IMG/VR virus record: IMGVR_UViG_3300024346_000066
Span: 1-59,282 of that record
Strand: one strand, 5' to 3'
DNA: 59,282 nt
Source of the DNA: a virus
In this document: positions 45,277 through 59,282 of the stretch, in pieces
Position numbering within the stretch: position 1 is the first letter of the stretch
Layout: each line of letters begins with the position of its first letter
Notes under the pieces: generated by a model
The model's input: only the letters and a program-made list of their open reading frames with translations
Told to the model about the DNA's origin: nothing
Database searches by the model: none
Made by a program: the position numbers and the translations under genes

Positions 45277-46316
45277 TACATACCTGCCTTAATTTTATCT
45301 TTGTCCATAAGAGAAAGTTCTCTAAATGTCATTTGGACGTTAATTTGTGTAGGTGAACCATCAGCAAACGTATTGAATGACGCATTCGGTGTGTAATTAA
45401 TTGCCATCTCTGTTAGTACGCAACTCGTGTGGCGGTGGATGTTTGTGTTCTCTACACCATTTGCATAATATGAGATATCAAATTCTGATGGGTATACGTA
45501 CAAGAATTTATTAGTATCTTTAAATTCTGGATGCATATGTAGCTTGAATGTATTGATAATATTCTGGACGTTCTGTGATTCAGATTTATCACGTGGAAAG
45601 AACTGATACTCAAATTGGAATGTGCGGAAATCGACACCTTTGAACACTTGTTCTTTGCGAGGGTTAGCTGCTAGACCAGTAGCAGCAGAAACTGTGCCCG
45701 CATTTGGTCCAAATGCTAAACCTAATGCTGCTGCGCCAGTACCAGCTGCGCCAACTAACTGTCCACCATCAAAACTTCCTATAGCTTTTAATGCCGCTTC
45801 ACCAAGTAATGGAGCCATAACAGCAGTGGCAGTTTCTTCTTCAGAGTATTGAACTCCATATCGAATGTTAAGTTGATTGGGAACATGTAAAGCAATAGCA
45901 GTTCTTAATCTTTTCTGAGCACGTGACGCAGTTCCAGCAATTGCTGCTGCAGCACCTAATCCAATAGCACCTGGAGCGGCAGCTACAGCTGCGCCAGCAA
46001 TTGCTTTACCGAAAGCGAATCCACCAGCAATAGCACCCTTTAGCGCAGTACCAGCAACTGCGCCAGCAACTAATCCAGTTTTAGATAAGTTAGAAGCTAA
46101 TAATTCTCCACGATCTCTAGTGAACGAGATATCATCGGTAATCTGTTGATTGTCACCATCTTTATTTAAAATTTTAGAATCCTCTGCTACACTGATATAG
46201 AAAATAGCGTAGTTACCACCATATCTTTCAGACAACAAATCTGCTGGATACGTGTGATTGTTGATTTCATATTTACCAGTCTGATACGATCTTACTGGAT
46301 TTGGTGTTGATGCCAT
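45276..46316 (-). CDS. gp48: Baseplate tail tube cap protein gp48
   Basis: The 346-residue protein completes the baseplate and starts the tail tube with gp54. The C-terminus (EMAINYTPNASFNTFADG, then QMTFRELSLMDKDKIKAG) aligns with the end of T4 gp48 (KTPNGNFNGLAIAPN, MTMREIITLNRASLYAG). It also has the tube-like segment FRTFQFEYQFFPRDKSESQNVQNII. Residues ~75-150 are an unusual Ala/Gly-rich stretch (LKGAIAGGFAFGKAIAGAAVAAAPGA) that looks like two hydrophobic helices; a membrane-like segment is unusual for a baseplate protein. A perfect late promoter lies 31 bases upstream. Confidence 0.87.
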   Translation of the reverse strand: MASTPNPVRSYQTGKYEINNHTYPADLLSERYGGNYAIFYISVAEDSKILNKDGDNQQITDDISFTRDRGELLASNLSKTGLVAGAVAGTALKGAIAGGFAFGKAIAGAAVAAAPGAIGLGAAAAIAGTASRAQKRLRTAIALHVPNQLNIRYGVQYSEEETATAVMAPLLGEAALKAIGSFDGGQLVGAAGTGAAALGLAFGPNAGTVSAATGLAANPRKEQVFKGVDFRTFQFEYQFFPRDKSESQNVQNIINTFKLHMHPEFKDTNKFLYVYPSEFDISYYANGVENTNIHRHTSCVLTEMAINYTPNASFNTFADGSPTQINVQMTFRELSLMDKDKIKAGM

Positions 46317-52802: not shown

Positions 52803-53726
52803 TCAATCTTCTTGTGCGATCTTCTCAAAGTAAGACATCACATCTTCATCATCATCCATCGGAGCAGGTTTGCTTGCCTTTGGAGTTGAAGCTGGCATAG
52901 AACTAGCTGGTGTTGGTGCAGCACGAACTGGACGATCTTCATCAGAAGCAATCTCTGCAGCAGACTTGCTAGCAAAAGAATCACCAGACAAAACCTCATT
53001 TAGTTTTTTCTTGAGTTCATCATAAGACTTAAAGTTCTTACGATCAGTAAACTCAGATAACTTAGTTTGAGAGTTAACAACTGCCAACAGTTTGTTTTCA
53101 TCTTCTGAAATAGGAGATGGTTCAGCAAACACTGACTCATCGTAGTTGGCATAACCATCTTTCTTACGCATACGCAGTTTGAAATTGGCACCTTCCCACA
53201 AGTCAAATACATTCACTGGCTTTTCATCTTCGAAAGTTGGTCGTGCTTTGTCCATGATCTTATCAAAGATTTTCTTGCCGAATTTAAACAAGAATACCTT
53301 ACCTTCGTTCTCTGGATGCTTTGGATCAGACACAACCAATACGTTGGCAGTGAAAGATAACTTACGCTTTTGTTTACGAGCAATCTCTTTGTTGGCTTCA
53401 GAACCAGAGTTCCAAAGTTGAGTGTTCATTTCACCAACAGGATCGTTCTCACCAAGAGTGGTTAGTGAGTTCTCGATATACCACTTACCAGTTGGTCCTT
53501 GGAAGCCATGAGAAAAGATACGAACCCATGGGAGTTCATCACCTTCAACACGTGGTAAGAATCGTAGTGTGGCTGTTCCGTTACCTGCTTTGTCACCTTC
53601 TAGACGCCAGAATCGGTCGTCAATGTAGGACTTGGTTTCGGATTGGGGGTTGGCAACTTTCTCGAAAGCATTGGCAATTGCACCAAAATCAGAGTTGCGC
53701 ATTGAGCGGAGTTTTTGAATATCCAT
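52803..53726 (-). CDS. gp32: Single-stranded DNA-binding protein gp32
   Basis: The 307-residue protein coats single-stranded DNA in replication, recombination and repair. N-terminal KLRSMRNSDFGAIANAFEKV is the basic self-association region. The core has WRLEGDKAGNGTATLRFLPR, WVRIFSHGFQGPTGKWYIENSLT, VLVVSDPKHPENEGKVFLFKFGKKIFDKI and DLWEGANFKLRMRKKDGYANYDES, aligning well with T4 gp32. The C-terminal tail ends MDDDEDVMSYFEKIAQED, an acidic interaction tail preceded by a Pro/Ala linker. No Cys occurs anywhere; the three Cys of the T4 zinc site are N/D/G here, while the His (H73) is kept. Followed by a strong terminator and preceded by gp59-gp33 as in T4. Confidence 0.95.
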   Translation of the reverse strand: MDIQKLRSMRNSDFGAIANAFEKVANPQSETKSYIDDRFWRLEGDKAGNGTATLRFLPRVEGDELPWVRIFSHGFQGPTGKWYIENSLTTLGENDPVGEMNTQLWNSGSEANKEIARKQKRKLSFTANVLVVSDPKHPENEGKVFLFKFGKKIFDKIMDKARPTFEDEKPVNVFDLWEGANFKLRMRKKDGYANYDESVFAEPSPISEDENKLLAVVNSQTKLSEFTDRKNFKSYDELKKKLNEVLSGDSFASKSAAEIASDEDRPVRAAPTPASSMPASTPKASKPAPMDDDEDVMSYFEKIAQED

Positions 53727-53973: not shown

Positions 53974-54588
53974 TTATAACTCTTGTATCTCTTCTTTGAA
54001 CTGATTGAAAACTGGTTCAACCTTACTCTTGTCGTACTTCACAAATCCCTTAACTTTCTCAATCTTTCGTATCTCATTCTCCCACAAGTATAGCATGGTT
54101 GAATTTTGTTTCCAGTTGTCAGTAAGGTGCATCATGTCATCAAATATCCTGACGGACTCAATACTTATTTGCCCACCAAGGAATAGCTTAAGTATACTTG
54201 GATAATTGTTACAAGTAAAGTAAAAGATTGATTGCTCTTTTAACTTTTCTTTGTAAGCATACATAACAATCTTACTGCAATCATCAGAGAAAACCTTAGT
54301 AATAGACTGCTTGCGTTTCATCCACTCACCAAGATTACTCAATGCCTCTTCCGAGAAATACTGAGGGTTTTCATTACCATATGCAAAGTTAGCTACAAAG
54401 AATTGAATCAAGTCTTTATCTACTGGATACTTTCGTGACAGCTTCTCAAATATGTATCTATCATTACGAGCATTAAATGCGTCACGTGTACCCTTGATAT
54501 TACCACGATTCTTAAACACATCAAAGGTATCTCTAGTGAAGTGCAATTTAATAGCCATGTAATACTTGTATGCTTTAAATCCGTCCAC
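53974..54588 (-). CDS. gp59: Helicase loader gp59
   Basis: A 204-residue protein, near T4 gp59 (217), that loads the replicative helicase onto gp32-covered fork DNA. The pattern KAYKYYMAIKLHF, DAFNARNDRYIFEKLSRKYPV and DLIQFFVANFAYGNENPQYF follows T4 (VYKLYLMIKQH, RDKYFFQKLSEKYK, LALIFISNLVANQDAWIGD). The second, C-terminal domain is helical (DDMMHLTDNW, WENEIRKIEKV). The likely start is a GTG at 54588; a later ATG would cut a conserved helix. The order gp33-small-gp59-(small)-gp32 retains the T4 neighbourhood. It overlaps the preceding membrane protein by 14 bases. Confidence 0.88.
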   Translation of the reverse strand: MDGFKAYKYYMAIKLHFTRDTFDVFKNRGNIKGTRDAFNARNDRYIFEKLSRKYPVDKDLIQFFVANFAYGNENPQYFSEEALSNLGEWMKRKQSITKVFSDDCSKIVMYAYKEKLKEQSIFYFTCNNYPSILKLFLGGQISIESVRIFDDMMHLTDNWKQNSTMLYLWENEIRKIEKVKGFVKYDKSKVEPVFNQFKEEIQEL

Positions 54589-56568: not shown

Positions 56569-56757
56569 TTACCATGAACCATCATCGATAATACCACGAA
56601 CCCAAATTGGTCCGAGGCTCACAAAAATCCCACGCATGTTGGGATTTAATTCATCTGGATGTAGAAAATCAAATCTGAAATCCCAATGATATGGATTGAT
56701 TCCCAATCCAAACCACAAACCAGAATATTGTAAATATTTACTTAATATCTTTAACAT
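56569..56757 (-). CDS. Small protein with YLQYSGLWFGLGINPYHWDF motif, unknown
   Basis: A 62-residue aromatic-rich protein (start MLKILSKYLQYSG; ends LGPIWVRGIIDDGSW). The aromatic content and the G-L-G-I-N-P-Y-H-W-D-F pattern suggest a small globular or membrane-peripheral protein. The ATG at 56757 overlaps the clpP stop by 20 bases. Homologue-like short ORFs of this sort occur in other phage genomes, but I assign no function. Confidence 0.55.
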   Translation of the reverse strand: MLKILSKYLQYSGLWFGLGINPYHWDFRFDFLHPDELNPNMRGIFVSLGPIWVRGIIDDGSW

Positions 56758-57298
56758 CGTCGCAAATCCCATATTTTTTCGCTTCAGCTGCGCTCAACCA
56801 AATGTCTTGTGGTGGCAACAACACTTCACGAATTTCTTTATCCGTTAACCCAGTACATTTTTTGTAATGGGAAATCATGCGTTTAGTAGTTAAGTCGAAC
56901 TCTTTAATTTGAGCAAACAGTTCATGCTCTTTACCAAAAGCACCCCATGAATACTGATGAGAAAGAATAGAAGTATTCGGTGTAAGAATACGTTGTCCTT
57001 TTTCACCAGCAATGAATATCATTAATCCAGCAGAAGCAATTTGTCCTAAACCGATAGTTCTAATAGGAATTGCTGATCCACGCATTACATCAACCATAGC
57101 GAAAGAAGCATTTAAATCTCCACCTGGAGAGCAAATAATAAGATTAAGCATGTCTGGACGTTCTTCAGAAAAGTTTGCTTCAAACACCCATTCAATTGCA
57201 TTCTTACAAGTTGTTAAAGTTATCTCTTCCATCATCAGGAAGAAAGAATGCCTCGAAGCTGAATCTTCCTTCAACTGGAGGTTTAGTTTTTCCATCAT
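56738..57298 (-). CDS. clpP: ClpP-like serine peptidase
   Basis: A ClpP-fold peptidase of about 186 residues. Landmarks are the oxyanion strand IICSPGGDLNASF, the catalytic Ser in GQIASAGLMIF (S89 from the 57298 ATG), the His in ILSHQYSWG (H114) and the Asp in PPQDIWLSAAEAKKYG (D165). Ser-His spacing is 25 and His-Asp 51, close to bacterial ClpP (25 and 49). Host ClpP needs ClpX/ClpA for tagged proteins; here no ATPase is visible. The N-terminal beta-strand (HSFFLMMEEIT) lies in the overlap with the endolysin gene, so starts later than 57235 are unlikely; overlap is about 95 bases. Confidence 0.88.
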   Translation of the reverse strand: MMEKLNLQLKEDSASRHSFFLMMEEITLTTCKNAIEWVFEANFSEERPDMLNLIICSPGGDLNASFAMVDVMRGSAIPIRTIGLGQIASAGLMIFIAGEKGQRILTPNTSILSHQYSWGAFGKEHELFAQIKEFDLTTKRMISHYKKCTGLTDKEIREVLLPPQDIWLSAAEAKKYGICDDVKDIK

Positions 57299-57827
57299 AA
57301 TTTTTGCCACCTTCTTTATAAAAAATATGTCGACCGATAGTAACTGTTTTCTGTAACTTCCATCCTGGACTTACATAATCAGCGTGATAATACAAAGAAC
57401 CTTTAGTTATATCATGTAGTTTCTCGTAGTTGACATAAACGTATACAGCAACTTCTTTTGCTGACTGATACGATTCACTTCCTTTATTACTCGTGACTGG
57501 AGTACAAAACCAAGAAAATTGACACACACCTTGTGTCTTTTGTTTGACTACCCCACAGATATCTTTTGGGAATCTTGGGTCTTCAACTCTATTTAACGTT
57601 ACTAGAGCAACGGCAACTTTGCCTTTCTCTGGTTCACTTCTTGCTTCATAGTAGATATTATCTGCCAAGCAATCAATTTGTTTCTTAGTATCTTTTGTTA
57701 ATTCTGAATACGCAACATCAAGAATTCTATCATTGATTAAAAAAATCTTGTTTGAAGCATATAATGTAATTGCGATTATTGATAAAATTAATAAGCTGAC
57801 AATTGTCAGTATATTTTTAGTTCGCAT
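57204..57827 (-). CDS. Cell wall hydrolase, SleB-like endolysin with membrane anchor
   Basis: A 207-residue lytic enzyme. Residues 5-24 (NILTIVSLLILSIIAITLYA) are a signal-anchor-like segment, as in signal-arrest-release endolysins. The catalytic part starts near residue 52 with LADNIYYEARSEPEKGKVAVALVTLNRV, the hallmark of the SleB/cell-wall-hydrolase family with the essential Glu (E61). It continues with FPKDICGVVKQ, QGVCQFSWFC and YYHADYVSPGW, then IGRHIFYK. It would cleave peptidoglycan to release progeny. It overlaps the downstream clpP by about 95 bases. Confidence 0.9.
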   Translation of the reverse strand: MRTKNILTIVSLLILSIIAITLYASNKIFLINDRILDVAYSELTKDTKKQIDCLADNIYYEARSEPEKGKVAVALVTLNRVEDPRFPKDICGVVKQKTQGVCQFSWFCTPVTSNKGSESYQSAKEVAVYVYVNYEKLHDITKGSLYYHADYVSPGWKLQKTVTIGRHIFYKEGGKNYDGKTKPPVEGRFSFEAFFLPDDGRDNFNNL

Positions 57828-58630: not shown

Positions 58631-58900
58631 TTATTCTTCGCGATAGATTGCTAAGATGTTTTCTTCGTCAATCAATGCACGTTCCACATTACCAATCTTA
58701 ACAGGGATACACTTACCCCAGTCAAGAACAATTTTATCACCCTTACGAACTTTCTTTACGTCATAACCGATCTCTAATACTTCAGCAAACTTAGTTACTT
58801 TGACAGAAGTAGCACCTTCAAGAATAATGCCAGATTCAGTTTTTCGCTCAGTTTCTTTCACTTCAGCAATGTAAACTCTTTTACCCAATGGTTCAATCAT
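58631..58900 (-). CDS. GroES-like (Cpn10) co-chaperonin
   Basis: An 89-residue member of the co-chaperonin 10 fold. The pattern IEPLGKRVYIAEVKETERKTESGIILEG (roof/mobile loop region), KFAEVLEIGYDVKKVRKGDKIVLDW and RALIDEENILAIY matches GroES order; the mobile loop with E-S-G-I-I-L is the host GroEL-binding part. T4 uses its own co-chaperonin gp31 to fold the major capsid protein in host GroEL; this protein may play that part. It starts 25 bases or so downstream of the tmRNA tag unit and has a GAGG ribosome binding site. It is the last gene before the tmRNA. Confidence 0.92.
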   Translation of the reverse strand: MIEPLGKRVYIAEVKETERKTESGIILEGATSVKVTKFAEVLEIGYDVKKVRKGDKIVLDWGKCIPVKIGNVERALIDEENILAIYREE

Positions 58901-58924: not shown

Positions 58925-59282
58925 AGTTGGTTATTCTGTTACGAGGAAACCAACCGAAACCCTAAGCAGTGTTTAGGCTGCTAATGCGAACTGTGAGTCG
59001 TTTGCTTTTACTTTTTTTGCTTCTACGACTAGGCTTCGTCTTTCTATGCTATGGGCATAGCGACTAAAGTTACCCTAATCCTACGGGTTTCACATTCCCG
59101 TGCTGTCCACTCATTTACTCTTTGCCCTGTCGAAACTATGCACCCCCATCAAAAGATTACTGTTACACCTAGAATCAGATAATAATCCTCATACGAGAAT
59201 TACCAATAATCTTGTGGTGGAGGTGGGGGGATTCGCACCCCCGTCCAGAACACTTTTCTCTTTGCTTCATACAGCAATAACC
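58925..59282 (-). ncRNA. ssrA: Circularly permuted tmRNA (ssrA), nearly complete
   Basis: On the minus strand the acceptor half comes first: T-stem GGGGG (59242-59238), loop TGCGAAT, CCCCC, then CACCTCC (59225-59219), A, CCA (59217-59215). After a 67-base intervening segment, the 5' half starts GGGGGTGCATAGTTTCGACAGGG at 59147. GGGGGTG pairs with CACCTCC as seven base pairs, the third being the G-U wobble used by alanyl-tRNA synthetase. The tag frame from 59005 to 58973 encodes ANDSQFALAA-stop with resume codon GCA. A pseudoknot-like stem GTTGGTT/AACCAAC follows. The acceptor half extends a few bases past the window edge. Confidence 0.93.

Follow-up and report, generated by a model that had tools for sequence, protein, structure and literature searches.

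A permuted two-piece tmRNA of probable betaproteobacterial type in a T4-like phage, and the exchangeable spacer between its halves

The window analysed here, a stretch of 59,282 nucleotides of viral DNA, ends in a tmRNA gene whose two halves stand in reverse order on either side of a spacer. Such a locus raises the question whether the gene belongs to the phage and works there, and two further questions that the findings below open to test: why permuted tmRNA genes arise and persist, and how a single transcript might yield a structural RNA as well as an mRNA. Taken as a whole, the feature is very probably a working, phage-inherited two-piece tmRNA with a spacer slot that is filled in cassette fashion.

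ARAGORN called one permuted tmRNA in the window, and the Rfam model RF04321 (tmRNA_permuted) matched end to end at 59276-58973 on the minus strand with 116.1 bits (E 5.4e-22), exceeding its gathering score of 47. A sequence-only reading of this DNA had proposed a circularly permuted tmRNA and named a covariance-model search as the check; that search agreed with it. The complete gene takes up the final 357 bases of the contig (59282-58926, minus strand, as are all features given below) and runs from the tRNA 3′ half with its encoded CCA through the spacer to the 5′ half, the coding domain and the tag. As delimited by the RF04321 alignment, ARAGORN and the sequence itself, the acceptor piece (59215..59282) contains the T arm (59242-59226), the acceptor 3′ strand CACCTCC (59225-59219), A73 (59218) and the CCA (59217-59215), which ends at 59215. 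It is followed by a 67-nt spacer (59148..59214), predicted to be removed during maturation, and by the coding piece (58926..59147), which comprises G1, the tRNA 5′ half, the pseudoknot region, the tag and a 3′ hairpin; G1 (59147) is the predicted RNase P site. The CCA end, the spacer length and the position of G1 are all as the earlier reading had them. The same is true of the 7-bp acceptor stem, which forms solely between the two halves (CACCTCC with GGGGGUG at 59141..59147, GGGGGTG in the DNA) and includes the pair G3 (59145)-U70 (59221).

The tag frame (58973..59005) begins at an alanine codon and finishes in a degron and stop: GCA AAC GAC TCA CAG TTC GCA TTA GCA GCC TAA gives ANDSQFALAA, with the codons at 59005-58976 and the stop TAA at 58975-58973. 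The same tag with its ALAA-stop end had been read before, but the eleven codons then counted are ten, eleven being reached only by including the stop. The 3′ end of the coding piece presumably lies at the terminal hairpin (58954-58926). The precursor folds with a z of -3.6, and together with the compensatory changes in homologues from many other contigs this means that the structure is more than chance: acceptor-stem positions 5-68 and 6-67 change in concert among relatives, and G3-U70 was found in 158/158 distinct phage relatives.

Although the coding domain aligns with the pseudoknot region of the relatives, it carries a 36-nt insertion in the first pseudoknot region (CTATGCCCATAGCATAG, 59034..59069), an extra hairpin segment that is bordered by a TAGTCG repeat, missing from all relatives aligned and unique to the window. 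Similar hairpins were present in the spacers of L042, L051 and L041; the likeness to part of the L042/L051 spacer amounted to 86-88% over 26-29 nt, with an E of 0.017 that applies within the local sequences. The segment may perhaps be a mobile hairpin, as this likeness suggests. Its presence could weaken function. It could also be a mark of decay in a non-functional remnant of a host-derived tmRNA, and both its confinement to this contig and the different allele of the window's siblings would suit such a history. We consider decay very unlikely, however, since the acceptor, T arm, G3-U70, CCA, tag and stop are all intact and the allele group of the window is conserved in dozens of contigs.

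An affinity to betaproteobacterial tmRNAs, suggested earlier by the likeness of the tag to beta- and gammaproteobacterial ones, was supported by RF01850 (betaproteobacterial tmRNA), which was the best-scoring member of its clan both in the window and in the relatives retrieved by its 5′-half signature. The score in the window, 82.7 bits, falls 1.3 bits short of the gathering score (84), since the contig does not reach the first 48 model positions and the match is confined to positions 49-331; most relatives tested exceed the cut-off. The 23-base 5′-half signature (GGGGGTGCATRGTTTCGACANG) matched 73 viral contigs. Neither the exact signature nor the tag DNA (in a pattern that admitted only the TAA stop) had any match in the genome contigs of bacteria and archaea that were scanned; as these scans had no positive control, their negative outcome carries little weight. 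A nucleotide search of isolate phages gave no match, and a plasmid search yielded nothing beyond short T-arm matches. The feature is a well-supported phage two-piece tmRNA in a beta-type variant. Uncommon tag ends were seen in the phage tmRNAs of L037, L044, L042 and L130.

The surrounding DNA is that of a T4-like phage. The window encodes homologues of T4-like gp17 (terminase), gp18 (tail sheath), gp32 and gp59, and the isolates closest to it in terminase and gp32 are cyanophages, Melnitz and HTVC008M. Just downstream of the tmRNA lies a gene for a GroES-like co-chaperonin (58631..58900; Pfam Cpn10, E 1.8e-11), followed by genes for a cell-wall hydrolase (57204..57827; PF07486), a ClpP-like protease (56738..57310; PF00574, E 1.2e-29) with Ser, His and Asp conserved by alignment, the gp59 helicase loader (53974..54588) and the gp32 single-stranded DNA-binding protein (52803..53726). 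Hydrolase, gp59 and gp32 are conserved neighbours: in dozens of viral contigs, many of those that reach far enough, the tmRNA is followed on the same strand by the genes for cell-wall hydrolase, gp59 and gp32, in this order. When gp59 relatives with at least 5 kb upstream were inspected, a permuted tmRNA was present there in at least 23 of 33, a lower bound because the tmRNA was sought with a regular expression, and none of the 33 had a tmRNA on the opposite strand. A general tmRNA-GroES-ClpP module was considered and rejected, as GroES occurred in 1/40 and ClpP in 6/40 tmRNA-bearing records. The window does share this arrangement with its close siblings, and GroES was found next to the tmRNA in no other records.

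The position of the tmRNA at the contig end could be taken to mean that a bacterial ssrA gene was joined to a phage contig, through host DNA or faulty assembly. This is extremely improbable. Siblings of the window (L219-L223) share about 92-94% nucleotide identity over the adjoining 5.7 kb, and in three of them (L219, L220 and L222) the corresponding position also holds a tmRNA; the 5′-half signature, moreover, was found in viral contigs and in none of the bacterial or archaeal contigs of the scan without positive control. The conserved synteny rules against host DNA or a chimera and agrees with the earlier assignment of the gene to a T4-like phage. What the contig end takes away is probably only the promoter. 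The contig stops at 59282, 68 nt before the CCA end, whereas a sigma70-like -10 hexamer in relatives usually starts 75-84 nt before it; because of these distances the transcript is probably complete within the window. Promoter matches were found for 62/149 of the relatives' tmRNA genes and in 94/861 control stretches.

We then considered the spacer, beginning with its ends. TAATCTT lies where the sequence-only reading had placed it (59159-59153), while its partner AAGATTA lies at 59213-59207 and not at 59211-59205. The pairing does lengthen the acceptor stem, as had been claimed: AAGATTATTG (59204..59213) and CAGTAATCTT (59153..59162) form 10 bp (59213-59204 with 59162-59153), supported by the fold and by covariation in relatives. 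Among 22 distinct spacer ends, matched ends formed 8.73 of 9 pairs and mismatched ends 6.74, and 0/100,000 permutations reached the observed pairing; in a larger set of 115 spacers the values were 8.4 of 9 pairs against about 6.25 after shuffling, with 0/20,000 permutations. As the sequences tested are related and not independent events, these permutation values express association and are not exact probabilities. Directly 5′ of G1 stands a UGAU leader (59148..59151 in the window), which faces ACCA with one C-A mismatch, so that acceptor stem, CCA and spacer stem make one long helix. UGAU precedes G1 in 63/65 genes; the spacers were gathered with patterns of which one required TGAT, and this count uses only the unbiased subset from searches that did not. 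Judged on these sequences, the pairing of the spacer ends is correct and general. The 78-nt spacers of L034, L035, L037 and L015 looked tRNA-like by eye, with a T-arm-like AAGGTTCAAGTCCTT within a 10-bp stem.

The content of the spacer, unlike its ends, is swapped independently of the mature RNA. Comparison of 158 distinct phage tmRNAs revealed unrelated spacers in 89/156 gene pairs with near-identical halves. For example, L257 and L258 agree to 94% across 5.7 kb and their tmRNA halves are almost alike, yet unrelated spacers of 170 nt (L257:3263-3432) and 146 nt (L258:3286-3431) encode different small proteins, of 52 and about 62 codons. Likewise, the alignment of L219 with L222 reaches the spacer from either side, and the spacers themselves measure 26 and 53 nt. 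No other spacer seen was related to that of the window, which differs from those of the siblings L219, L220 and L222. With flanks about 93% identical to the window's, these siblings carry another tmRNA allele, with GGGGAUG and the tag ANDSVYALAA, which indicates that the allele of the window differs by local replacement with the neighbourhood kept.

Many of the longer spacers are filled by genes. Among 29 distinct spacers that were 104 nt or longer, 23 contained an ORF of at least 30 codons filling at least 80% of the spacer, and in these cases the tmRNA across the spacer was called independently by ARAGORN or Rfam. The spacer ORFs belong to several unrelated families, mostly with dN/dS of about 0.05-0.3, an order of magnitude only, as the genes are short and synonymous sites partly saturated. 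One family, a 50-aa protein (MKYKIVVKTGDKTF...), occupies five distinct 175-nt spacers (L199, L205, L209, L211 and L212) in several tmRNA bodies, shows no indels and has a dN/dS of 0.08-0.29 between spacer copies where computable; it also occurs free-standing, outside any detected tmRNA, in L206, L207 and L208. A 41-codon family has a hydrophobic N-terminal stretch, a dN/dS of 0.05-0.14 and a stop codon that is the UGA of the UGAU leader. Further families include one of 52 codons and one, in Melnitz and L117, that extends into the tmRNA. Of the spacers with an ORF, 12/19 have a Shine-Dalgarno-like motif within their first 24 nt, as against 15/107 of the others (Fisher p 2e-5). No significant family was returned for the spacer proteins by a PHROGs search.

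One might argue that spacers vary neutrally and that their ORFs arise by chance where the sequence is under no constraint, given that most spacers lack an ORF and 6/29 of the long ones fail the ORF test. We regard this as quite unlikely. Dinucleotide shuffles rarely gave such spacer-filling ORFs, and the low dN/dS values, the absence of indels in the 50-aa family, the Shine-Dalgarno enrichment and the free-standing homologues all speak against it. The codon comparisons show that spacer ORFs in relatives are under purifying selection. We think it likely that the spacer between phage permuted tmRNA halves is a dedicated, exchangeable cargo slot: the halves would serve as recombination arms, nothing would be fixed but the paired ends and UGAU, and small protein genes of several unrelated kinds would have found a place there. 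Since the spacer of the window contains no ORF of 25 codons or more, the cargo result rests on its relatives. Frequently the Shine-Dalgarno motif falls within the 5′ strand of the spacer stem and the ORF ends on the UGA of the leader, which suggests that translation of the spacer and maturation of the tmRNA from one transcript may be coupled.

These observations are consistent with the following course of events. Judging from relatives, a sigma70-type promoter would lie a little beyond the contig end, and from it host RNA polymerase would make a single precursor. In this precursor the acceptor stem would continue through ACCA/UGAU into the spacer stem, so that the spacer becomes the loop of a long hairpin. 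RNase P would cut before G1 and a 3′ end would arise at the encoded CCA; the spacer would thereby be released, and the two remaining pieces would stay joined by base pairing. The host's AlaRS would then charge the tmRNA via G3-U70, and host SmpB, which we assume, would deliver it to stalled ribosomes; among 40 records including the window, none was seen to encode SmpB. Addition of ANDSQFALAA as a ClpXP/ClpAP-type degron would allow ribosomes stalled on truncated mRNAs during infection to be released and the fragments destroyed, and the nearby ClpP homologue might participate in this degradation. Spacers would be exchanged as cassettes within the lineage because constraint falls only on their ends, and in relatives the small protein gene of the slot could be translated from the precursor or from the excised spacer.

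The RNA might instead act as a variant or decoy that competes with host tmRNA for SmpB, or that alters which proteins are degraded through a swapped degron. The variation of phage tags (ANDSAYRLAA, ANDERFLMAA, ANDSRFKLAA, ANESVYKIAA) and the missing phage SmpB fit this idea, as does the finding that phage DS6A provides a tmRNA-like domain which by itself inhibits tmRNA (PMC11915505). The window, however, keeps a canonical ANDxxFALAA tag and a complete coding piece, and we hold a decoy role to be improbable here. The two-piece form is a conserved part of a large group of aquatic T4-like phages, so that ribosome rescue appears to be under these phages' own control. Moreover, the spacer, commonly regarded as waste, has covarying ends, is swapped like a cassette and bears genes under purifying selection.

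How, finally, does the window compare with known systems? Mycobacteriophage tmRNAs such as that of Bxz1 are one-piece. They are phage-encoded like that of the window, and have been listed without the form of their genes (PMC4131195). Group I intron tmRNA genes are likewise interrupted by removable sequence, but there a self-splicing intron sits in the T-loop region (PMC11915505), whereas the spacer here lies between permuted halves. The tmRNA database contains about 12,000 permuted tmRNAs of bacteria (PMC11915505). In public phage genomes, 53 of 133 distinct phage tmRNAs were counted as two-piece (PMC9004378). Pelagibacter phage HTVC008M (KC465899.1; L298, L299) has a permuted tmRNA at 145161-145370 (90.6 bits), unannotated in GenBank, which shares the gp33/gp59 locus, the paired spacer ends and the UGAU leader with the window and differs in its tag, ANFNEYALAA. 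The sequence-only reading knew of no permuted tmRNA in a T4-like phage; this does not hold, for the T4-like methylophage Melnitz, which infects Methylophilales H5P1, has an alpha-type two-piece tmRNA just upstream of gp33-gp59-gp32 (PMC9004378; MZ577096). It lies at a matching place and, as in the phage relatives, has paired spacer ends and a UGAU leader. In Melnitz (L082, MZ577096.1) we also noticed an unannotated spacer ORF within SsrA (MFKWLSKTRLVVITRDYF..., about 46096-46218), with 41 codons and GGAG upstream, that runs into the 5′ half. The Melnitz tmRNA is followed by a glutamine riboswitch, as is that of L117 (L117:778-828), whereas the tmRNA of the window is followed by GroES and Rfam found no riboswitch in the window. 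Genes inside tmRNA spacers were not reported in the open-access literature searched, and the part that appears new relative to described phage tmRNAs is the exchangeable, often protein-coding spacer. Two-piece tmRNAs in T4-like phages are already described; that of Melnitz fits the alpha-type model and has the tag ANDNYVPVDYALAA, and that of the window differs by its beta-type domain and its tag ANDSQFALAA.
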